This document shows positions 11,049-47,215 of a DNA stretch of 64,000 nucleotides, one piece after another (the stretch's first letter is position 1; each line of letters opens with the position of its first letter). Below the pieces are notes generated by a model. The model searched no databases. It was not told the DNA's origin and worked only from the letters and a program-made list of their open reading frames with translations. Origin of the DNA: Pseudomonadota bacterium (GTDB lineage: Bacteria; Desulfobacterota; Desulfovibrionia; Desulfovibrionales; Desulfomicrobiaceae). The translations under genes were made by a program, and so were the position numbers. Location of the stretch: NCBI GenBank assembly GCA_018902545.1, contig JAHIQM010000002.1, positions 1 to 64,000 of the forward strand, written 5' to 3'.

Positions 11049-11142
11049 GGAAGCGTATCGTCACTGGTGTGGCGCCCGGTCTTCAAAACCGGTGGAAGGT
11101 CGAGAGGTCTTCGGTAGGTTCGACTCCTATACGCTTCCGCCA
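11049..11142 (+). tRNA. selC: tRNA-Sec (anticodon TCA)
   Basis: An 8-bp acceptor stem GGAAGCGT pairs with ACGCTTCC. The anticodon stem encloses loop CTTCAAA, with anticodon TCA at 11083-11085. There is a long variable arm and an encoded CCA end. The 94-base length and 8-bp acceptor are diagnostic of selenocysteine tRNA. The genome therefore should encode selenoproteins (formate dehydrogenase and [NiFeSe] hydrogenase are usual in this group), but no selA, selB or selD lies in this window. Confidence 0.95.
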
Positions 11143-27656: not shown

Positions 27657-27731
<75 letters not shown>

Positions 27732-27738
27732 CAACGAA

Positions 27739-27813
27739 GGCGGCATAGCCAAGCGGTAAGGCAGAGGTCTGCAAAACCTCCATTCTCCAGTTCAAATCTG
27801 GATGCCGCCTCCA
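27739..27813 (+). tRNA. tRNA-Cys (anticodon GCA)
   Basis: Acceptor GGCGGCA/TGCCGCC, anticodon GCA within the loop CTGCAAA, T-arm TCCAG/CTGGA and encoded CCA. It is separated from the first tRNA-Gly by seven bases. Confidence 0.95.
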
Positions 27814-27818
27814 GCAAT

Positions 27819-27893
<75 letters not shown>

Positions 27894-27900
27894 AAAAATC

Positions 27901-27927
27901 AGGCCGGCCCGTCCGGCCTATTTTTTT
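27901..27927 (+). terminator. intrinsic terminator after tRNA-Gly copy 2
   Basis: AGGCCGG pairs with CCGGCCT around a 5-base loop, followed by seven T residues. Confidence 0.85.
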
Positions 27928-27997
27928 GCCCGCCTTGAACCCCAAAAAAAAACTTGCCTCGTGGCGGCCTTCTGATTAGGACAGCCTCACTTCGAAT

Positions 27998-28072
<75 letters not shown>

Positions 28073-38080: not shown

Positions 38081-38602
38081 ATGAAAAAACTGATTTTTGC
38101 AATTTTGCTCGGCCTTCTCTGTGCCGGAACGGCCATGGCCAGCGGGCTGGATATCTTCCTGGAAGAACTCGACGCCGAGGCCACGCGCTCGAGCACCTCA
38201 TTCGTGAATAACCTCAGTGCCCGTTTCGGGGTTCCGACACGCGAAGTGGAGGACCTTGCGCGCATGACAAAACGGCCCGCCGACATCTTCATGATCTTCG
38301 AACTGGCGCGGATGACAGGTCTCTCCAGGGAGCGGGTCAGAACCACCTACGAAAAAGGCGAAGGCAAAGGATGGGGGGTCATGGCCAAGGAAATGGGCAT
38401 CAAGCCCGGCTCGAAAGAATTTCATGCCCTGAAAAACGGCGAGTTCAACTATTGGGGCTCAAGCTCGAAAAAGGGCAAGGGGTACGATGACGACTCGGTG
38501 AATTCGGGCAAGGGAAAGGGGAAAGGATACGACAATTCGGTGGGTTCGGGCAAAGGTAAAGGATACGATGACGAGGGAGAGGGGAAAGGAAAGAAGAAGT
38601 AG
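38081..38602 (+). CDS. secreted protein with Gly/Lys/Tyr-rich tandem repeats
   Basis: 173 aa. The signal peptide spans about residues 1-20 (FAILLGLLCAGTAMAS). A helical domain follows to about residue 125 and includes VPTREVEDLARMTKRPADIF and GWGVMAKEMGIKPGSKEFH. The last 45 residues repeat GKGKGYD-type units, rich in Gly, Lys, Asp and Ser, and end GKGKKK. AAGGAG lies eight bases before the ATG. The stop codon lies a few bases before a RAYT end fragment. I do not recognise a named family for the tail; a surface- or polyanion-binding role is guesswork. Confidence 0.8.
   Translation: MKKLIFAILLGLLCAGTAMASGLDIFLEELDAEATRSSTSFVNNLSARFGVPTREVEDLARMTKRPADIFMIFELARMTGLSRERVRTTYEKGEGKGWGVMAKEMGIKPGSKEFHALKNGEFNYWGSSSKKGKGYDDDSVNSGKGKGKGYDNSVGSGKGKGYDDEGEGKGKKK
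38471..38593 (+). repeat. tandem repeats of about 40 bp inside the secreted protein gene
   Basis: Three imperfect units begin near 38471, 38510 and 38552. Each encodes a GKGKGYD-like stretch followed by a short Ser/Asp linker. Purine-rich coding strand. Confidence 0.7.
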
Positions 38603-38712
38603 CCTGTGCGTTGCCGCGGGGCGTCACTTGATAGACGGCTTCCGGAAATTCTATGCGGAGTGGTCTGGCCATGAGGGCGAGATAGGCTAAGATAATTCAA
38701 GATCAGATCTGA
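38603..38712 (-). pseudogene. RAYT 5'-end remnant
   Basis: The minus strand from 38672 reads MARPLRIEFPEAVYQVTPRG, nearly the N terminus of the two full RAYT transposases in this window. Homology continues through their upstream region to an end sequence AAGATCAGATCTGACC (near 38698-38713). It stops abruptly at about 38603, just after the secreted protein's stop codon. A solo element end. Confidence 0.75.
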
Positions 38713-38760
38713 CCATTGACTTTCAAGTCAACCATGAAGACAAGCAATGAATGATACATA

Positions 38761-38796
38761 TTGCATAAAAAAATATTATGACATATATATAATGCA
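38761..38796 (+). promoter_or_regulatory. AT-rich hipBA promoter/operator region
   Basis: TTGCAT at 38761 and TATAAT at 38788 are promoter-like but 21 bases apart. TGCAT (38762-38766) and ATGCA (38792-38796) form an inverted pair. HipB-type antitoxins repress their own operon, so operators are expected here. No ribosome-binding site precedes the hipB ATG. Confidence 0.35.
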
Positions 38797-39137
38797 TGTC
38801 ACCCAAAAAAACGTCCGCACACGACCTGCCGGGGAGCCCCGCCGCCAATCTTGAGCGCCTGGGGCGCAACCTTCGCGCCGCCCGCAAGCTGCGCGGCCTG
38901 AGCATGCAGGACCTGGCCGCGCGCACCATGACCACGCGCGAGACCATCCGCCGCCTGGAAAACGGGCACCCCGGGGTGTCCCTCGGAGTGCTGGCCCATG
39001 TCCTGTGGGTCCTGCAGCTCGACGAGCAGCTTGGCGACATGGCGGCCCTTAAGTCCGACCCTGTGGGCAGGGCCATGGCCGTGAGCAGGCTGCCGCAACG
39101 CGTCGCCACGGAGAGCAGCGATGACCTCGACTTCTGA
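38796..39137 (+). CDS. hipB: HipB-like XRE-family antitoxin
   Basis: 113 aa. The Cro/CI helix-turn-helix runs from about residue 20 to 75, with LGRNLRAARKLRGLSMQDLA and TTRETIRRLENGHPGVSLG. It overlaps hipA by 17 bases, the standard antitoxin-first layout. Expected to neutralise HipA and repress the operon. The tail DDLDF is acidic. Confidence 0.85.
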   Translation: MSPKKTSAHDLPGSPAANLERLGRNLRAARKLRGLSMQDLAARTMTTRETIRRLENGHPGVSLGVLAHVLWVLQLDEQLGDMAALKSDPVGRAMAVSRLPQRVATESSDDLDF

Positions 39138-40377
39138 GCGGGCCGTGGTCTTCATCCGGCTGCCCGGCATGGACTACGTGCCTGCGGGGATGCTCCGGCA
39201 CGAGGACCGGGCATATTTCTTCCGCTACGGCCGCCGGTATCTTGAGCGGCCAGATGCCATCCCCCTCGACCCGTCCCGGATGCCCTTGGCCGACATGGAG
39301 TTTTCCGGGAGCACCCTTTTCAGCGCCCTGCGCGACGCCGCCCCGGACCGCTGGGGCCGCAAAGTGCTGGGACTCATGGCTGGTCGCGCCCCCGGAACAC
39401 TGAGCGAGTTTGAAGTTCTGACGGCGGCCCATCACCCGCAGCGCATGGGCGCCCTGGCCTTTGGACCCACGTCAGAGGGTCCGGCGTCTCTGGCTCCCTG
39501 GGCCACGGGCGATGCGTTCTGCATGGTGCCCGAAAACCTGGGGCGTGTGGTGGCCATCGTCGCCCGCGTCGACGAGTTCGAGGACGACGAGGACCTCGAC
39601 GAATTGCGGGATGGCATGCCCGAAGACGCGTTCCTGGCCGCCCTCGCCTCCAGCCTGTCCCTGGGCGGTGCCAGGCCCAAAGCCATGGTCACCCTGGACG
39701 GGGCGTCCTGGATCGCCAAATTCTCCAAACGCGGGGACCCGTGGCGTGAACCCGTTGTCGAGCACGCGACCATGACCCTGGCTGCGCGCTGCGGCATCAC
39801 TGTCGCATCGACACGGCTGATGGAACAGGACGGACATTTCGTCCTGCTGGTCGAACGCTTCGACCGCCAGCACGACGGCTCGCGGCACGTCATTTCGGGC
39901 TTCACGGTGACGGGGGCCGAGGAAGACGGCGACTGGGGCAGCTACCAGAACCTGGCCGAGCAGGCCCGCAGGCTCGGCGACGCGCAGTCCGGCCCCGAGA
40001 TATTCCGCCGCATGGCTTTCAACGCCCTGTGTTCGAACCGGGACGACCACCTGCGCAACCACGCCTTTTTCGTCTCGCGCAAAGCCATCGCCCTGACCCC
40101 GGCCTACGACCTGGTGCCCTCCTCCATCCGCTTCAGGCAATGGGACCTGTCCCTGCGCTGTGGACTGGAAGGCCGCGCGGCCACGCGGTCCAATATCCTG
40201 AGCAACGTCCGGCCCTTCGGGCTCAGCGAACGGGAAGCGGCGCGGATCTGGGAAAAAATGCGGGAAACCGCCGCAGGCTGGCGGGAGCATTTCGCCGGGC
40301 ACGGCGTGAAAAAACGGGAGATGGAGGAGCTCAGGCACCGCTTCACATTGGCGGAAGCGTCATCAAAGGCCTCATAG
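39121..40377 (+). CDS. hipA: HipA family serine/threonine kinase toxin
   Basis: 418 aa, full length. In E. coli HipA phosphorylates glutamyl-tRNA synthetase and induces persistence. Visible kinase features are the GGARPK loop (about 182-187), ERFDR (245-249), catalytic NRDDHLRNHAF (306-316) and TPAYDLVP (326-333). All key catalytic residues appear intact. It lies at the left edge of the accessory region, next to RAYT fragments. Confidence 0.9.
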   Translation: MTSTSERAVVFIRLPGMDYVPAGMLRHEDRAYFFRYGRRYLERPDAIPLDPSRMPLADMEFSGSTLFSALRDAAPDRWGRKVLGLMAGRAPGTLSEFEVLTAAHHPQRMGALAFGPTSEGPASLAPWATGDAFCMVPENLGRVVAIVARVDEFEDDEDLDELRDGMPEDAFLAALASSLSLGGARPKAMVTLDGASWIAKFSKRGDPWREPVVEHATMTLAARCGITVASTRLMEQDGHFVLLVERFDRQHDGSRHVISGFTVTGAEEDGDWGSYQNLAEQARRLGDAQSGPEIFRRMAFNALCSNRDDHLRNHAFFVSRKAIALTPAYDLVPSSIRFRQWDLSLRCGLEGRAATRSNILSNVRPFGLSEREAARIWEKMRETAAGWREHFAGHGVKKREMEELRHRFTLAEASSKAS

Positions 40378-40419
40378 CCCGGAATCCTTTGCATCCATGT
40401 TGGCGCACGAAGGCCGCCC

Positions 40420-40514
40420 TGATTGCTCATCATGCAGGAGTGGCAAAGCGCATTGAACCTGCGAAACGTCTGCCGAAGGACGGACAGGACCGTATTGCCG
40501 CCAACAAATATCAA
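40420..40514 (-). pseudogene. RAYT internal fragment
   Basis: The minus strand reads NTVLSVLRQTFRRFNALCHS, matching the RAYT stretch NTFLAVLRQTLRRFNVLCHA with several substitutions. It directly abuts the end of the first full RAYT element, and is more diverged than the two full copies are from each other, so it is an older remnant. Confidence 0.65.
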
Positions 40515-41426
40515 GGGTCAGATCTTGAATCTTGATTCTTTGCTCCGGATAATCCTGCTCACGGTCGAATAATGCAAACCGGCCGCGGCAGCCACTTGGG
40601 CCTGGCTATAGCCGAATTCGAGACACGCTTTGCCGATGGCGCTGTCGCGTTCTTCCCTGTTCGCCGTGTTCGCCAGGATGCTCTCCAGGCTGGGCCGGTC
40701 GACGAAGCGTTGGGCGCGGGGGACTTCTTTGAGGGCGCTCTTTTCCTTGAGCAAGGGAAAAAGTTTTTCGAGAAACGCATCGTCGCCGAGGAAACATTGC
40801 CCCTTGAGATCATCCCAAGGTGACTCTTCCGCGTTCATGCCCGCCTCGATGAACCGCCGGTATTCCGTGCGGGCGCTTTTCCGGTCGAGTCCAAACTGCT
40901 CCAGAATCCAGTCCACGGAAAGGAACTCCGGCACCTTGTCGAGTCCGGCGGTAGCCCGGTAGCTGGACCACGGATATTTCCCGACATCCTTGACCATCCC
41001 GGCCCGCACGGGATTGAGCACGACGTACCGGCACAATTCGAGAAGATACGCCTCCCGGTCCACCACAATGGCCTTGAACCGCCCTTGCAGCACATGCCCT
41101 ACCCGACCATGCCGCCGGTTGAAGGCCTGCGTATAGACACTGTTGAGTTGGCGCATGGCTTTGGACAGATTGGCGTCTGGGGTTTCGAGAAGCAGGTGGA
41201 AGTGATTGGTCATCAGGCAGTAGGCATGACAAAGCACATTGAACCTGCGCAACGTCTGCCTGAGAACAGCCAGGAACGTATTTCTGTCGACGCCATCGAC
41301 AAAGATGGCGGCCTGGGCGTTGCCGCGGGACGTCACGTGATAGACGGCTCCCGGAAATTCTATGCGGAGTGGTCTGGCCATGAGGGCGAGATAACTTGAG
41401 ATGAATCAAGAATCAAGATCTGACCC
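40515..41426 (-). mobile_element. RAYT element, copy 1 (912 bp, 24-bp inverted ends)
   Basis: Ends are inverted copies: GGGTCAGATCTTGAATCTTG at 40515 onwards and its near-complement to 41426, differing by two bases. It is the same length as copy 2 and nearly identical. One transposase gene fills it. No target duplication is visible, as expected for this superfamily. Confidence 0.85.
40518..41381 (-). CDS. REP-associated tyrosine transposase (RAYT, Y1/HUH type), copy 1
   Basis: 287-aa single-strand transposase of the IS200/IS605-related RAYT group. The HUH motif is TNHFHLLLE (His 60 and 62), with a likely catalytic Tyr 83 in NSVYTQAFNRR. A C-terminal helix-turn-helix (FGYSQAQVAAAAGLHYSTVS, about 248-270) resembles a DnaA-type recognition module. 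The last residues, ESRFKI, and the stop codon are encoded inside the element's inverted end. Intact and probably active or recently so. Confidence 0.9.
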   Translation of the reverse strand: MARPLRIEFPGAVYHVTSRGNAQAAIFVDGVDRNTFLAVLRQTLRRFNVLCHAYCLMTNHFHLLLETPDANLSKAMRQLNSVYTQAFNRRHGRVGHVLQGRFKAIVVDREAYLLELCRYVVLNPVRAGMVKDVGKYPWSSYRATAGLDKVPEFLSVDWILEQFGLDRKSARTEYRRFIEAGMNAEESPWDDLKGQCFLGDDAFLEKLFPLLKEKSALKEVPRAQRFVDRPSLESILANTANREERDSAIGKACLEFGYSQAQVAAAAGLHYSTVSRIIRSKESRFKI

Positions 41427-41502
41427 TCAACTTTGCGTTGGAAAGACGCGGCGCGCTGGATGAGTTCAAGTTGGAATTATGAGCTTGATGGATTTCATGT
41501 TT

Positions 41503-41919
41503 CTATTTTGATTCCTTAAGAAATTTTTCGAACCTGCGACACATTTGCTCAAAGGCTCTTAATTCGACTTTGCCCATATGGTCAAAATGGTCCGGAAGGA
41601 TGCCGCCATCAGCCACTGATTCGGCTAGTATTCTCAGCGGATTTTCCGGATATTCCCCGTCCAAAGAAGCCTTGCCGATGATGGTTCCGCCAAGAAGCCA
41701 CAAATTGTCACGATATTGTACGAAGGTCTTTCGAGTCATTCCCTCAGAATATAGCGCATTCAAAAAATCTGAAAAACAGGACAACAGCTTGCGGCCATAG
41801 GCGAGATCTTCCAGCGAGTGCATCCAACTCGTCGGCCACTCATCAAAATCTCGCGCCCAGACGCGAAAACTCTCCGATTCTGGGCTCTTGTGCTCGTTCA
41901 CATCACCCCCAAAATCCAT
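41503..41919 (-). CDS. hypothetical protein, third gene of the inter-RAYT operon
   Basis: 138 aa, unrecognised. It is rich in aromatic and acidic residues (SFRVWARDFDEWPTSWMHSL) with a helical Lys-rich tail. No signal peptide or membrane helix. It overlaps the upstream gene by 22 bases. A role related to its two partners is inferred only from the overlap. Confidence 0.65.
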   Translation of the reverse strand: MDFGGDVNEHKSPESESFRVWARDFDEWPTSWMHSLEDLAYGRKLLSCFSDFLNALYSEGMTRKTFVQYRDNLWLLGGTIIGKASLDGEYPENPLRILAESVADGGILPDHFDHMGKVELRAFEQMCRRFEKFLKESK

Positions 41920-42683
41920 CCTTCGATCTGGGCGACACCGTATTGCCCGGGGTGCATCGGAGGATTGAGATAGTTTTTGAGGCTGCCATCCGTGTCAATT
42001 TGTCGCAGCCAGGCGGCGGTCACGTAAGCGTCGTGCTGGTCTGGGGTGCGGCCTTCCCGTGGATGGCTTTTGCTCCACAGCGCTGGATAGATCTCAGCTA
42101 ATGCCGATTTGCCTGCGGGGATCTCCCAGCCGTCGAAGGGCCAGAAGTGAAGCCGCTCTCCCAGCTTCAGACGCAGATGGCGCAGCCACGGCAATCCAGC
42201 ATGGGTGGATTTTGCCACCGTTCCGGGAATGTCGAAATGGAAGACCGACTTGGCTCCGGCCCGTTCCTCGGTGATCCGACGCCAGCGTGCACTGCCGGAA
42301 CGGCTCTGGCCGTCGCCCCATAAACCCTCCCGGATGAAATCGACGTAGGTGTTTTTGGCGTCGGTGGGCCAGTGTCGATGGAAGTCGTCGAGAAAGGCAG
42401 CCCAGTCCGGCACCAGGTGATGGACCTCGAAATAGCGCAGGGGAAAGGAAAAACCGTGGTCGATGCCGACGATGGTCGGCACGTCCTCGGACAAGCGGAC
42501 CTCCAGCCACTGCGCCAGTTCGCGCCGGGTCCAGTACTTGCGAGGGCTGGGCGGCGGCGCCACCTCCTGCGGTAAAGCCTCGCGGTCGGCCTCGTAAACC
42601 CGAAGCCCCTTCAGGCTGGAATCAGGAGTTTCCGCGCCGGAGTAGTCGATGCCGATGTAGCGATGGAATGCGGGATTTGTCAT
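41898..42683 (-). CDS. predicted RNase H-fold nuclease (DUF429-like)
   Basis: 261 aa. Acidic residues fall where DUF429/RNase H-fold proteins have them: YIGIDYSGAE near residue 11, VGIDHGFSFPLRYF near 72, AEIYPALWS near 197, and DQHDAYVTAAWL near 218. Family members are predicted nucleases, though none of the motifs proves activity. It overlaps the upstream gene by four bases and the downstream one by 22, so all three are translationally coupled. Confidence 0.7.
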   Translation of the reverse strand: MTNPAFHRYIGIDYSGAETPDSSLKGLRVYEADREALPQEVAPPPSPRKYWTRRELAQWLEVRLSEDVPTIVGIDHGFSFPLRYFEVHHLVPDWAAFLDDFHRHWPTDAKNTYVDFIREGLWGDGQSRSGSARWRRITEERAGAKSVFHFDIPGTVAKSTHAGLPWLRHLRLKLGERLHFWPFDGWEIPAGKSALAEIYPALWSKSHPREGRTPDQHDAYVTAAWLRQIDTDGSLKNYLNPPMHPGQYGVAQIEGWILGVM

Positions 42684-43261
42684 TTCCAGCTCAAGTGTCT
42701 GTCCCTGGACCAGCGGAAGTATTTCATCAACTCCCAGTTGACTGATTCTGGATCGAATCGTTCACAGTCGTAATCTCCTCCGGACCATTCCATGTAGCTT
42801 TGATGCTCTTCATGATTCGGATCCTTCAAAGCTATGCAAAATTCAACGAAACCGGGGACACTGCCTACATCTTCAGGCGGACAGGCCCGTTTGCCTTCAA
42901 GACAGGCCAGCTCCGTTCTCAGTTCTGGGCTGAAATAGCGGCTGTCCTCGAGAACAAGTTCATGTTCCCAGCTGTCCCCGAAGTCATACAGATAACGGAA
43001 TGTACGGCCTTTCTGTTTGATCAGATCACCGAGACGGTATTTGCCACAGACCAGACCGTCATCTTTGAATTCAGGGTATTCCGTGTAGCGCTTATTCCCG
43101 ATGCTGAACTCGTGAAGATGGCTGTCAGTCCATCCCATTACAATCTGGATGACATCATGCAGCCTGTCCAGCGTGATGCTGGCGGGAACGACAAAGCGCC
43201 GCCAGATGGCAGGCTCAATTTCAAATAGTTGTATTTTTAGTAGAAAAAGTCGTTCATTCAT
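42680..43261 (-). CDS. plasmid pRiA4b ORF-3 family protein
   Basis: 193 aa. The family signature is clear: LKIQLFEIEPAIWRRFVVPA at the start, then LHDVIQIVMGWTDSHLHEF and YLYDFGDSWEHELVLE. The domain recurs on plasmids and in insertion-sequence passengers, and its function is unknown. First gene of the three-gene unit flanked by the two RAYT elements. Confidence 0.85.
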   Translation of the reverse strand: MNERLFLLKIQLFEIEPAIWRRFVVPASITLDRLHDVIQIVMGWTDSHLHEFSIGNKRYTEYPEFKDDGLVCGKYRLGDLIKQKGRTFRYLYDFGDSWEHELVLEDSRYFSPELRTELACLEGKRACPPEDVGSVPGFVEFCIALKDPNHEEHQSYMEWSGGDYDCERFDPESVNWELMKYFRWSRDRHLSWK

Positions 43262-43300
43262 TTTCTTTATCCACCTAATACCCCCATACTGAGTTCAGGT

Positions 43301-43447
43301 TTATGCTTGAGGAAGTGGTGCTGGGACCGCTGGGGCAGGAACGGGCTCAAGGACGGCCGGTTCTTCCCAATGAATGCCGTGCCTGGTCAGCAATTCCTTG
43401 AAGGGTGTTCTCCTTGCGCAGCAGTCGCCATCGACTTGATGCGTCAT
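43301..43447 (-). pseudogene. possible gene 3' fragment cut by RAYT copy 2
   Basis: A 48-codon minus-strand frame starting MTHQVDGDCCARRTPF and ending with a Pro/Ala-rich tail (PAPAVPAPLPQA). Coding character continues up to the RAYT boundary at 43492. It may be the C terminus of a transposase or other gene. I cannot identify it. The rest of the gap 43262-43491 holds nothing else. Confidence 0.3.
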
Positions 43448-43491
43448 GGCCGGATTGCCACATGCCAGGCCAGAGGCAGAGCAGAGGCAGA

Positions 43492-44403
43492 GGGTCAGAT
43501 CTTGAATCTTGATTCATCTCGCCGAATTACCCTGCTCACAGTCGAATAATGAAGTCCGGTTGCGACGCCCACTTGGGCCTGGCTATAGCCGAATTCGAGA
43601 CACGCTTTGCCGATGGCGCTGTCGCGTTCTTCCCTGTTCGCCGTGTTCGCCAGGATGCTCTCCAGGCTCGGGCGGTCGACGAAGCGTTGGGCGCGGGGGA
43701 CTTCTTTGAGGGCGCTCTTTTCCTTGAGCAAGGGAAAAAGTTTTTCGAGAAACGCATCGTCGCCGAGGAAACATTGCCCCTTGAGATCATCCCAAGGTGA
43801 CTCTTCCGCGTCCATGCCCGCCTCGATGAACCGCCGGTATTCCGTGCGGGCGCTTTTCCGGTCGAGTCCAAACTGCTCCAGAATCCAGTCCACGGAAAGG
43901 AACTCCGGCACCTTGTCGAGTCCGGCGGTAGCCCGGTAGCTGGACCACTGGTATTTCCCGACGTCATTGACCATCCCGGCCCGCAGGGGATTGAGCACGA
44001 CGTACCGGCACAATTCGAGTAGATACGCATCCCGGTCCACCACAATGGCCTTGAACCGCCCTTGCAGCACATGCCCTACCCGACCATGCCGCCGGTTGAA
44101 AGCCTGCGTATAGACACTGTTTAATTGGCGCATGGCTTTGGACAGATTGGCGTCTGGGGTTTCGAGAAGCAGGTGGAAGTGATTGGTCATCAGGCAGTAG
44201 GCATGGCAAAGCACATTGAACCGGCGCAACGTCTGCCGAAGGACGGCCAGGAATGTATTCCTGTCGACGCCATCGACAAAGATGGCGGCCTGGGCGTTGC
44301 CGCGGGACGTCACGTGATAGACGGCTCCCGGAAATTCTATGCGGAGTGGTCTGGCCATGAGGGTGAGATAACCTGAGATGAATCAAGAATCAAGATCTGA
44401 CCC
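43492..44403 (-). mobile_element. RAYT element, copy 2 (912 bp, 24-bp inverted ends)
   Basis: Same length, orientation and inverted ends as copy 1. Together they bracket a 2.07-kb segment (41427-43491) carrying three genes, a composite-like layout. Confidence 0.85.
43495..44358 (-). CDS. REP-associated tyrosine transposase (RAYT, Y1/HUH type), copy 2
   Basis: 287 aa, differing from copy 1 at about ten positions (for example GVATGLHYSTVSRVIRRDES in the C-terminal helix-turn-helix region). HFH and Tyr 83 are conserved, and the frame is intact. As in copy 1, the final codons lie in the inverted end. The near-identity indicates recent duplication. Confidence 0.9.
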   Translation of the reverse strand: MARPLRIEFPGAVYHVTSRGNAQAAIFVDGVDRNTFLAVLRQTLRRFNVLCHAYCLMTNHFHLLLETPDANLSKAMRQLNSVYTQAFNRRHGRVGHVLQGRFKAIVVDRDAYLLELCRYVVLNPLRAGMVNDVGKYQWSSYRATAGLDKVPEFLSVDWILEQFGLDRKSARTEYRRFIEAGMDAEESPWDDLKGQCFLGDDAFLEKLFPLLKEKSALKEVPRAQRFVDRPSLESILANTANREERDSAIGKACLEFGYSQAQVGVATGLHYSTVSRVIRRDESRFKI

Positions 44404-44424
44404 CCGCCTTGCGCGTTGCTACCT

Positions 44425-45438
44425 CACAGCACGACTACCGAGGATTAATTGCCCTGAACATAGAAACCGACTTGTCGAAACCCCTTGGGCCACGGAAGGC
44501 AGCCGTTTTACCCTGCTTTTTCAGCATTGGTCATGAGCCTTGCCTGAGAGATGCCGGTCAATGCCGTCGCGCGTCACGTCGAGGTCACGGATACCCGCTT
44601 ATGGCGCATCGTCCACCACTATGTGTTTAAAGCCATCACTGCGCTGAACCTGAAAAGTCTCATGGTCATCAGTTTGGATGAGACCGCATCCAAGCGTGGA
44701 CACAACTACATCACCGTCTTCATCTACCTGGACCGTCCCTACAAGCCTGTTATCTTCGCGACTTCTGGCATGGGTAAGGAATGCCTGACTAAGTCCTGCG
44801 CGTTCTTTGAAACCCATAAAGGTCGTTCTGAAAACATTAGCGAGGCATTCTGCGACATGTCGCTTGCTTTCCTGTCTCCGTAGAACAAAAGTTCAAGCCC
44901 GCCTCGGTGACAGTCGACTGACTCACTGTCGCCCAACTCCTCACCAAAGCCGTCGATGACGTCAGAAAGCTTGATACCTGGCAGTCAAAGCTGCCGAACC
45001 ACTCCCGTTAGGCCGCGCTCAAGGGCGCCCAAAAAAAAACGCAGGAAGAATCAGGGAAATGCTCTCCTGGAGCTTGCCGAGCAAGGCATTGCAACCGCCA
45101 AGGCCTACCGTGCCAAAGAACTTTTGCGCTGGGCTCGACGAGCCGAATCGAAGCTGGCCGCCAAGTGGCGCATCACTCATTTTCTCAAACATACTGCGGA
45201 GTATGCCGCCGACTGCCCACTCATGGAACCCATGAAGAGTGCGCTAGCCAGCTTTGAAAGGCACCTACCGCGAATCCTTCTTCGTTGACAATTCTTTACA
45301 CACCGATGCGTGGTTCTAAGGTTCAAAGGGCTGTTTCAGGCGGCAAGGGCCAAAGCCCGGGGATATCGAAACGTGGAGTATTTCATCACCATGGTCTACC
45401 TGATTGCGCCCCCGATTCAGGCCGTGGTAGGTTCATAA
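44425..45438 (+). pseudogene. degraded ISL3-family transposase
   Basis: Pieces of an ISL3 DDE transposase in several frames. The segment MPVNAVARHVEVTDTRLWRI continues to ISLDETASKRGHNYITVF and AFCDMSLAFL, then an in-frame stop. A shifted piece carries VTVDWLTVAQLLTKAVDDVRK-like sequence, then NALLELAEQGIATAKAYRAK. The last piece reads GLFQAARAKARGYRNVEYF up to a stop at 45438. A TGA interrupts the first block upstream (ALVMSLA-stop-EMPV). At least three disabling changes; inactive. Confidence 0.8.
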
Positions 45439-45484
45439 AATACACATCAAACGAAGAAGACCATCTTTTGATTGATTTTCTCCA

Positions 45485-46672
45485 TTATGACAGCAAGTTA
45501 ACGATACAACGACAAATGAAGGCTGCTAACGGAGGAGGGACTGCGTTTCCGACCATCTCGTACTGCGCCTTAAGAGGACCTTCAAATGTAAAACAATCTG
45601 GAAAACCCTGCAAACGTGCCGCTTCTCTAACAGTATAAGCTCTATCTTCTGTTGGATGCAAAAATAATATAGGCGAACCAAATCGAGTATCAACTGTTAA
45701 AGACTGTTCATCCCAACATAAACGTCGATACTTTCCGTTGAATGTGTTTGTTAGATCAATTTTTTCGTCTTTATTCTTTATGAAACCTTTTTCTTTCAAT
45801 TTACAAACAGTTTTGATTGGATCATAGCCTAGGTATTGTTTCAGACTTTCGAGTGAAACTGGATCTGCATCACCCCAATCTCTTATCCGTTCTTTTCGTC
45901 TAATTCTAAGTATCGCTTCAAGAACATCACGCTCTTTTTTGCATGTTTTTCCGTAAACCTCAGGTATATCCCAAGTATGGACAGATCTCTTGCCAGAACG
46001 AACATTACTCAATTTTTGTCCTGGCCTGATACGCTTCGCAATTACACTTTGAACACCGATTGCTCTACATGTTGAAGGCTCATGGTTATCAATTCCACCT
46101 GAAATATCGCCTATCGCTTCTCTAATTGTCATTGGACGTCCAACAGGATCCGGCAAATTGAATTTTTTTCCTGTATTCCATGCGATTAAAATTGCTCGCT
46201 TGCGCATTTGCGCCATCCCAAGGTTCCGACAATCTACTACTGAAAGAGATGTTTTATAACCAGAACTTTCTAACAATGATATCGCAACATCCATATACTT
46301 TATTTTATGCTGACCTGAAAGAATTCCAGATACATTTTCTGCAATAAATACTTTTGGCTTTTGCTGAAGTACAATCTCTACAGCGCGGAGAAAAAGACTG
46401 TTTCGCGGATCATGAAGATTTCTTTTCCCCGCCGTTGAAAACCCTTGGCAGGGCGCCCCAGATAGTATTACATCTAAGTCGCTATGTTTAAAATTAAAGT
46501 CTCTCGACAAATCAAACACTTGCGCAACATTCGCAATATTCTTATTGTAAACAGAAACAACTAGCTTATTGATGTCAAATGCTCCGATGCATTCAAATTC
46601 GTCTATCTCCATCCCGAGGTCAAATCCACCGCATCCACAAAAAAGACTTATATATCTGTATTTTTTATTCAT
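45485..46672 (-). CDS. DNA (cytosine-5-)-methyltransferase
   Basis: 395 aa. C5-methylase motifs in order: I SLFCGCGGFDLG (about 9-20), IV GAPCQGFST with catalytic Cys 75, VI AENVSG (111-116), VIII QMRKR (155-159), and X YEMVGNAVPP near the C terminus. The target-recognition region lies between VIII and IX. It is much more AT-rich than its neighbours, a sign of transfer. No restriction endonuclease gene is visible. The ATG at 46672 is chosen; a TTG six codons upstream is possible. Target sequence unknown. Confidence 0.9.
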   Translation of the reverse strand: MNKKYRYISLFCGCGGFDLGMEIDEFECIGAFDINKLVVSVYNKNIANVAQVFDLSRDFNFKHSDLDVILSGAPCQGFSTAGKRNLHDPRNSLFLRAVEIVLQQKPKVFIAENVSGILSGQHKIKYMDVAISLLESSGYKTSLSVVDCRNLGMAQMRKRAILIAWNTGKKFNLPDPVGRPMTIREAIGDISGGIDNHEPSTCRAIGVQSVIAKRIRPGQKLSNVRSGKRSVHTWDIPEVYGKTCKKERDVLEAILRIRRKERIRDWGDADPVSLESLKQYLGYDPIKTVCKLKEKGFIKNKDEKIDLTNTFNGKYRRLCWDEQSLTVDTRFGSPILFLHPTEDRAYTVREAARLQGFPDCFTFEGPLKAQYEMVGNAVPPPLAAFICRCIVNLLS

Positions 46673-47215
46673 AATAACAGAATTAGACAATATTGCCTTG
46701 CCTTTTAATCAACCAATGTATTTTAGTGATAGTTTTTTACGAACACAAACAAGCAAGAATTAGTTTCTTACAAAGATTTTTAGATTTCTGTAAGCACCAT
46801 GGATAACATTAATTGCGTTTTATCTAGTTTATAAAAAAGATTACTTGTTTTATTATAAACACCTATTTGTCTATTTGAATTAATTTTTATAAGATATGAC
46901 AAATATTTTTCTAATACAATGTGTTATTTTATAACAAATAGTTAATAGCGATTACACCATTCAATCGCTCCAACCATGAATTAATAAGCGATCATTCGTC
47001 CAGGTGTTCCAACAATTCAGATTGATAACGAGGCCATGGTTGGCCGCATGAATTCATCGAAAAATGCAACGGTGAAGGCCATGAAACCATGCACAGGTTT
47101 TTAGAGCATTCCTTTCCGGATGAAAAGGAAGAAAAGAGGTCAAAAGGAAGAAAAGGGATCAAGCTTGCTTTGTCTTTCCTAAGTTATCATCCTTATTTAA
47201 TAGACATCTTTTTCT
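46673..47215. other. AT-rich gene-free region
   Basis: About 540 bases, strongly AT-rich and without a convincing gene on either strand. Near 47120-47155 a purine-rich motif GGAAGAAAAG is repeated in tandem. Probably transferred flanking DNA of the methylase gene. Confidence 0.5.

Follow-up and report, generated by a model that had tools for sequence, protein, structure and literature searches.

The window analysed here, a stretch of DNA of 64,000 nucleotides, carries three overlapping genes on the minus strand: gene A (42680-43261; 193 aa), a member of the pRiA4b ORF-3 family (PF07929), gene B (41898-42683; 261 aa), predicted to encode a putative nuclease of RuvC/RNase H-like fold resembling DUF429 proteins, and gene C (41503-41919; 138 aa), which matched no family and was modelled as a small helical protein. 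A and B overlap by 4 bases and B and C by 22 bases, exactly as described in an earlier, sequence-only reading of the window. Because the dN/dS ratios are about 0.07-0.19 (A 0.07-0.085, B 0.13-0.14, C 0.19; one or two pairwise comparisons each, at dS values of 0.8-1.4, which is near saturation), all three are real coding genes under purifying selection and no chance open reading frames. The overlaps suggest co-translation rather than a joint function.

The three genes are bracketed by two units of a REP-associated tyrosine transposase (RAYT) on the minus strand. Self-comparison of the window placed unit 1, with its terminal repeats, at 40514-41440 and unit 2, a direct repeat of it, at 43491-44418, both being 95.3% identical over 928 bp. 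The transposase genes lie at 40518-41381 (NF047646, 5.5e-24) and 43495-44358 (Y1_Tnp, 1.8e-10). A decayed ISL3-family transposase follows on the plus strand (44551-45288); its first piece (44551-44883) matches DDE_Tnp_ISL3 (6.5e-7), and the later pieces lie in other frames as judged by eye. The mobile elements predicted next to the trio were hence confirmed, as were two neighbours of the trio, hipBA (38796-40377) and a C5 cytosine methylase that seems to stand alone (45485-46690).

Two RAYT relics were additionally detected, a 5' relic at 38602-38723 and a second one at 40420-40496, giving the order relic, hipBA, relic, unit 1, A-B-C, unit 2 over 38602-44418. The RAYT copies flank the cargo genes as if the repeats mark points of capture or recombination. 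The C5 methylase is located in an AT-rich patch (40% GC at 45001-47000 versus ~60% around it) and adjoins the decayed ISL3 transposase. The window also encodes three tRNA-Gly(GCC) and one tRNA-Cys in a row (27657-28072) and a selenocysteine tRNA (11049-11142).

Gene A was correctly named at the outset, matching PF07929 (PRiA4_ORF3) at 1.1e-61 and with 208 bits against a curated cut-off of 26.6. Through this family A resembles IS1096 TnpR, to which the pRiA4b ORF-3 proteins are presumably linked. Neither A nor B nor C matched any family among the PADLOC 2023 defence models at E<=1.

For the product of gene C no Pfam, PADLOC or NCBIfam family was found and the best PHROG match had a value of 0.048; no PHROG match was convincing for B either. 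The structure model of C, built from two sequences, is a helical bundle (pLDDT 74.7) with no informative structural match. A guess by eye that C resembles the core-binding domain of a tyrosine recombinase gained no support, and two scans of viral contigs gave no relative of C. In Paraburkholderia plasmids, a relative of C and a divergent ISL3 transposase share one unit of 1.72 kb. Since this unit is 99.8% identical between two plasmids whose flanks differ, C can be an ISL3 passenger, and its relatives on these plasmids travel inside a bounded ISL3 element. The window differs from this arrangement in that its ISL3 transposase is decayed and no enclosing element ends were found around A-B-C; its C gene is a possible passenger.

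The sequence-only reading had suggested that the trio is a system of defence, plasmid control or element control. Apart from the overlaps, this proposal could draw on C adjoining B at three of 84 other B loci (L024, L034 and L026, the last apparently duplicated as L003) and on a gene A near B at one of them (L029), located some 1.5 kb downstream and separated from B by a DUF6880 protein. Weak hints at a link between A and C may be seen in locus L111, where the protein after C matches PRiA4_ORF3 at 0.054, below the cut-off, and in L034, where a protein resembles A by eye with no PRiA4_ORF3 match. However, among the 95 B loci compared with A and C (84 of them from public collections, L024-L107, some incomplete) the complete trio was seen once, in the window itself. 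C is frameshifted in two of the three other B-C pairs (L026 and L034), and it is an ISL3 passenger elsewhere. Of 198 genomes in the phylum draw, 38 contain gene A. Of 20 A loci tested (L121-L140), only L121, that of the window, has B or C in flanks of about 1.5 kb; the relatives with 70-84% identity to A (L122-L127) have neither within that distance. Relatives of C occur in 10 of 395 genomes, and B was also found in only two of these, the window's genome and G381, which is apparently the same organism as L026. The notion of a single system is therefore largely refuted already and very improbable. A, B and C seem, by these comparisons, to be separately mobile genes brought together in the window, and the trio itself is ordinary and no fixed system. 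The expectation of a recurring trio near defence genes survived only for B, which is strongly linked to such genes elsewhere. As a side observation, at 6765-12783 of L026 the B gene and the frameshifted C lie beside what by eye resembles a Wadjet-type cluster, and one of the proteins scanned downstream of B loci matched JetA/DUF3375.

According to profile searches B belongs to no Pfam family at E<=1, PF04250 (DUF429) included, so that it is formally no DUF429 member. Residues 130-260 match the C-terminal part of NF011066 (PRK14495, a fusion of MobB and an unknown domain) at 1.8e-7, but the score of 30.6 bits is far below the curated cut-off of 596 and B has no MobB domain. The AlphaFold (AF2) model of B (pLDDT 87.5, pTM 0.89) arranges its strands and helices in the order typical of an RNase H fold. 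Most of the solved structures that VIA-align matched to the model have RuvC-like folds or RNase H folds related to them: ISCro4 (Z 6.5), IS621 (6.3), the MOC1 resolvase (6.2), Ydc2 (5.9), IscB (5.8), RuvC (5.7) and Tex (5.7), together with SPT6 and Cas9/Cas12. The best match (Z 6.5) has an rmsd of 3.2 over 112 residues, Z scores of 6-6.5 being moderate and in a range that unrelated folds can reach. Foldseek returned nothing at E<=0.001 for the model, and the comparison of the B sequence with solved structures gave a best E of 0.22, all rows being taken as chance.

The acidic residues regarded as putatively catalytic proved conserved when checked by alignment: of the 80 best sequences among the 531, all have D13, D75 and E197 and 79 have D218, and the same acids are kept in relatives of 27-35% identity. 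In an alignment they stand at the matching positions of seven DUF429 sequences. B and DUF429 (PF04250; COG2410/COG4328/COG4923) have the acidic motifs G-x-D, D, E-x-x-P and D-A in common, including their order; of the DUF429 series D, D-x-P, E-x-x-P and D-A only the second motif deviates, reading D-x-x-F in B. A direct profile-profile comparison of B with DUF429 showed no similarity, and one via distant relatives of B gave a weak match (E 1.9e-4, probability 47%). The description of B as a DUF429-like RNase H-fold nuclease was thus borne out for the predicted fold and the acids, and not for a match to PF04250.

In PMC3985635, DUF429 proteins (RNase H-like superfamily, clade D) are grouped with RuvC-like nucleases and are considered unlikely to be mobile, their context being conserved in close taxa, whereas B appears widely transferred. 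With the RuvC, MOC1 and Ydc2 resolvases B shares, as far as the model goes, the fold and the position of the acids at strand ends and in the last helix; it differs from them in its larger size, and the similarity is limited to Z scores of about 5.0-6.2 and 11-17% identity. B is a predicted RuvC-like protein of DUF429 type and a probable DNA-cutting enzyme. Its family appears not to be described in the open-access literature searched, and none of the model libraries consulted has a model specific to it. The fold and the idea of accessory genes of restriction systems are already known, and no account of the B family or of the pattern of its partners was found in that literature. A B reading frame of 537 aa (559 aa in another search), unlike other B genes, was observed in genome G196 (L203, 9395-11008).

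Relatives of B are encoded in 531 stretches of contigs from a collection with one genome per species. The best 80 of these, a set biased to high identity with several loci incomplete on one side, fall into ten phyla by their record titles, many being metagenome bins with unchecked labels. Of the 395 genomes in the phylum draw 17 carry B: as a full-length gene in 12, truncated by a contig end in one and as a fragment in four. A tree of 82 B sequences mixes phyla at 65-82% identity, many of its branches being weakly supported, which points to a wide horizontal transfer of B between phyla. B also occurs at four loci in viral contigs, one of them on the same contig as L052. The window's genome contains a second B piece of about 50 residues in two frames, which is a decayed relic and has no restriction gene recognisable by eye within 3 kb. 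Close downstream of B a recombinase of about 525-550 aa was seen at L050, L060, L064, L071, L095, L098 and L100, and a 242-aa recombinase piece at L078; that of L064 is a serine recombinase by Pfam. These recombinases possibly move islands of hsd genes and B. The B gene of L043, labelled as a Klebsiella pneumoniae MAG, is very close to that of L042 from an uncultured gammaproteobacterium, and the Klebsiella label may be a mis-assignment.

B recurs behind type I restriction genes in a strong, operon-like linkage. Relatives of HsdR, HsdM or HsdS are encoded upstream of B on the same strand at 19 of 59 loci whose upstream sequence covers 3 kb or more (seeds were drawn from upstream neighbours, and the count includes L104, the same contig as L052) and downstream at none of 65 loci with equally long sequence on that side. 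Genes at the B loci were called as greedy open reading frames and not by a trained annotation. In a whole-genome test, matches to N6_Mtase (PF02384) and HSDR_N (PF04313) were located relative to B, the positions being read off match tables and the expectation derived from the match counts and sizes therein. In 21 of the 50 genomes with a B gene, no more than 10 kb separates B from a type I restriction gene upstream on its strand, compared with 0.34 genomes expected; among the matches listed, none is located within 10 kb downstream or on the opposite strand.

These 50 genomes represent 32 of 39 loci with full flanks, eight others, including four already known to have restriction genes (L052, L064, L098, L100), and ten genomes of the phylum draw. 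The fraction of 21/50 is raised by the omission of seven loci with full flanks (L026, L034, L044, L082, L088, L093, L107), none of which had hsd relatives in the 3 kb count. The least selected count is 18 of 49, comprising all 39 loci with full flanks, 14 of them positive, and the ten draw genomes, four of them positive, with the seven left-out loci taken as negative from the earlier 3 kb hsd count. Of the 17 draw genomes seven were unused, namely the four fragments, the gene cut at a contig end, and G229 and G252 (already included as G406 and G407); with the latter two counted, 5 of 12 are restriction-positive. Two of the 21 restriction-positive genomes (G184, G426) carry a B gene with stop codons.

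No type I restriction gene was found near B in 29 of the 50 genomes, the window's own included, which has no HSDR_N match and N6_Mtase matches on other contigs only. The window's B gene is intact and not beside a restriction operon. Restriction genes are present within 10 kb upstream of B in G145, G161 and G184, which are among the relatives 78-81% identical to it.

The PADLOC and Pfam tallies of the neighbouring proteins (150 aa or longer, no farther than 3.3 kb, 39 loci, best 25 families each) agree in direction: 87 upstream proteins matched 265 PADLOC models and 108 downstream proteins 58, many models being redundant. Type I restriction, methyltransferase and specificity models top the upstream tally, and all three kinds are absent among the best 25 of the 58 downstream families. 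Just upstream of B we found Mrr, 10 bp away (L064), HNH_2 (L050), NucS_C/DUF5655 (L052), HEPN_Swt1-DUF499 (L101) and an RNA ligase (L033). Other upstream neighbours include DUF4145 and, beside a B copy holding a stop codon (L088), a RiboL-PSP HEPN protein; three of ten scanned upstream neighbours have no family. On the tree the restriction label is scattered, with eight changes among rows of known context, at least three of which are forced by the starred branches if unknowns are counted as negative; the link of B to restriction has thus been gained or lost more than once.

Repair genes adjoin B more rarely than restriction genes. PolA is encoded about 21-22 bp ahead of B in two congeneric species, G053 and G196, whose B shows 54-56% identity. 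When 303 genomes were drawn as a replicate from the class of G405, only three B loci turned out to be complete or almost so (G405, G779, G869), that of G869 lying at a contig edge. G779 has SbcD-SbcC downstream of B, as has L038, and no restriction gene recognisable by eye within 20 kb. In the stretches examined of the 80 named loci, PolA, RarA and DnaE accompany B in none and SbcCD only in L038. The two loci with SbcD-SbcC after B are L197, from a genome of G405's class, and L038, from a Chlorobium bin; a small protein just upstream of B in L197 resembles a LAGLIDADG homing endonuclease by eye.

A distant branch of 27-35% identity keeps the acids mentioned above and the same C-terminal motif EGW-x-x-G. 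It was matched in 42 of 240 genomes of the class of G403, 20 of them strongly. In these Alphaproteobacteria RarA is encoded upstream at 14 of the 20 strong loci, directly adjacent at 12, and it is absent from the flank seen at the other six. The two genes overlap by 4 bases in Azospirillum thermophilum and by 17 in Sphingomonas. In two Azospirillum plasmids DnaE overlaps the distant-branch gene; among the six distant relatives located on plasmids, two have no adjacent RarA or DnaE gene. The distant-branch protein is thereby a candidate for a RarA partner in its own right. Alphaproteobacterial loci with the RarA-coupled protein were noted at L162 (2682-4930) and L167-L184.

Because of its predicted RuvC-like fold, its conserved acids and its company of type I and Mrr enzymes, with SbcCD, PolA and RarA next to relatives, we favour the interpretation of B as a structure-selective DNA nuclease that partners DNA-processing machines, most often restriction enzymes, and assign it a probability of roughly 0.47. 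B would be a metal-dependent RuvC-fold enzyme acting on branched or broken DNA next to another DNA machine. In the distant branch this machine would be RarA, a protein of fork maintenance; in the widely transferred branch that includes the window's copy, the partner met most frequently is a type I restriction operon, at whose 3' side B lies. There B would most likely process the branched or cut DNA that arises as restriction enzymes translocate and cut, so that invader DNA may be finished off or jammed forks cleared. The window's copy would be an orphan, parked with the mobile genes A and C between the two RAYT units. A broader and more tentative proposal is that B founds an undescribed RuvC-like nuclease family serving as an interchangeable module for the cutting of branched DNA.

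Other interpretations account for part of these observations. B may act as a second line of defence guarded by the restriction enzyme, similar to PrrC with EcoprrI: silenced by the type I enzyme, it would be released by a phage that blocks restriction, cut nucleic acid and stop the infection. PrrC, an anticodon nuclease, is described as silenced by a linked type I enzyme (PMC2610378), and B resembles prrC as an extra nuclease-like gene linked to hsd. Its position behind hsd genes on the same strand in 21 of 50 genomes and companions such as a HEPN protein and an RNA ligase are in line with this role. However, relatives of B accompany SbcCD, PolA and, distantly, RarA, where a guard would not be expected, and the modelled RuvC-like fold suggests DNA rather than tRNA as target, PrrC being a nuclease of another kind. 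We thus consider a guard function unlikely, though the best placed of these competitors.

Somewhat less likely still, B hitch-hikes as a mobile gene, settling at operon 3' ends without any functional tie to restriction or repair. The spread across phyla with scattered neighbours, the decayed copies and the serine recombinase just downstream of B in several alphaproteobacterial loci would fit such a passenger, whereas the excess of defence models on the upstream side, the low dN/dS of B and the retention of its catalytic-type acids speak for a function. The presence of Tex and SPT6 among the structural matches might even suggest a catalytically silent RNase H-fold protein, comparable to YqgF domains, that binds DNA or regulates its partner. 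This seems improbable, given that the four acids are almost invariant in 80 sequences and persist in distant relatives, as an active site would lead one to expect.

Provided that B cuts branched DNA, as in the favoured interpretation, it would name a missing step after the translocation and cutting by type I enzymes and would link RarA, with its role in fork maintenance, to a nuclease partner so far uncharacterised. With 531 confirmed stretches the family is a large one, and it offers testable pairs in the operons of rarA with the distant-branch gene in Azospirillum or Sphingomonas and in the hsd-B operons, such as that of Aromatoleum toluvorans (L053). Should the proposal of an interchangeable module be true, with RarA, PolA and SbcCD as its machines in repair and type I enzymes and Mrr in defence, B would directly bridge fork repair and restriction in evolution.
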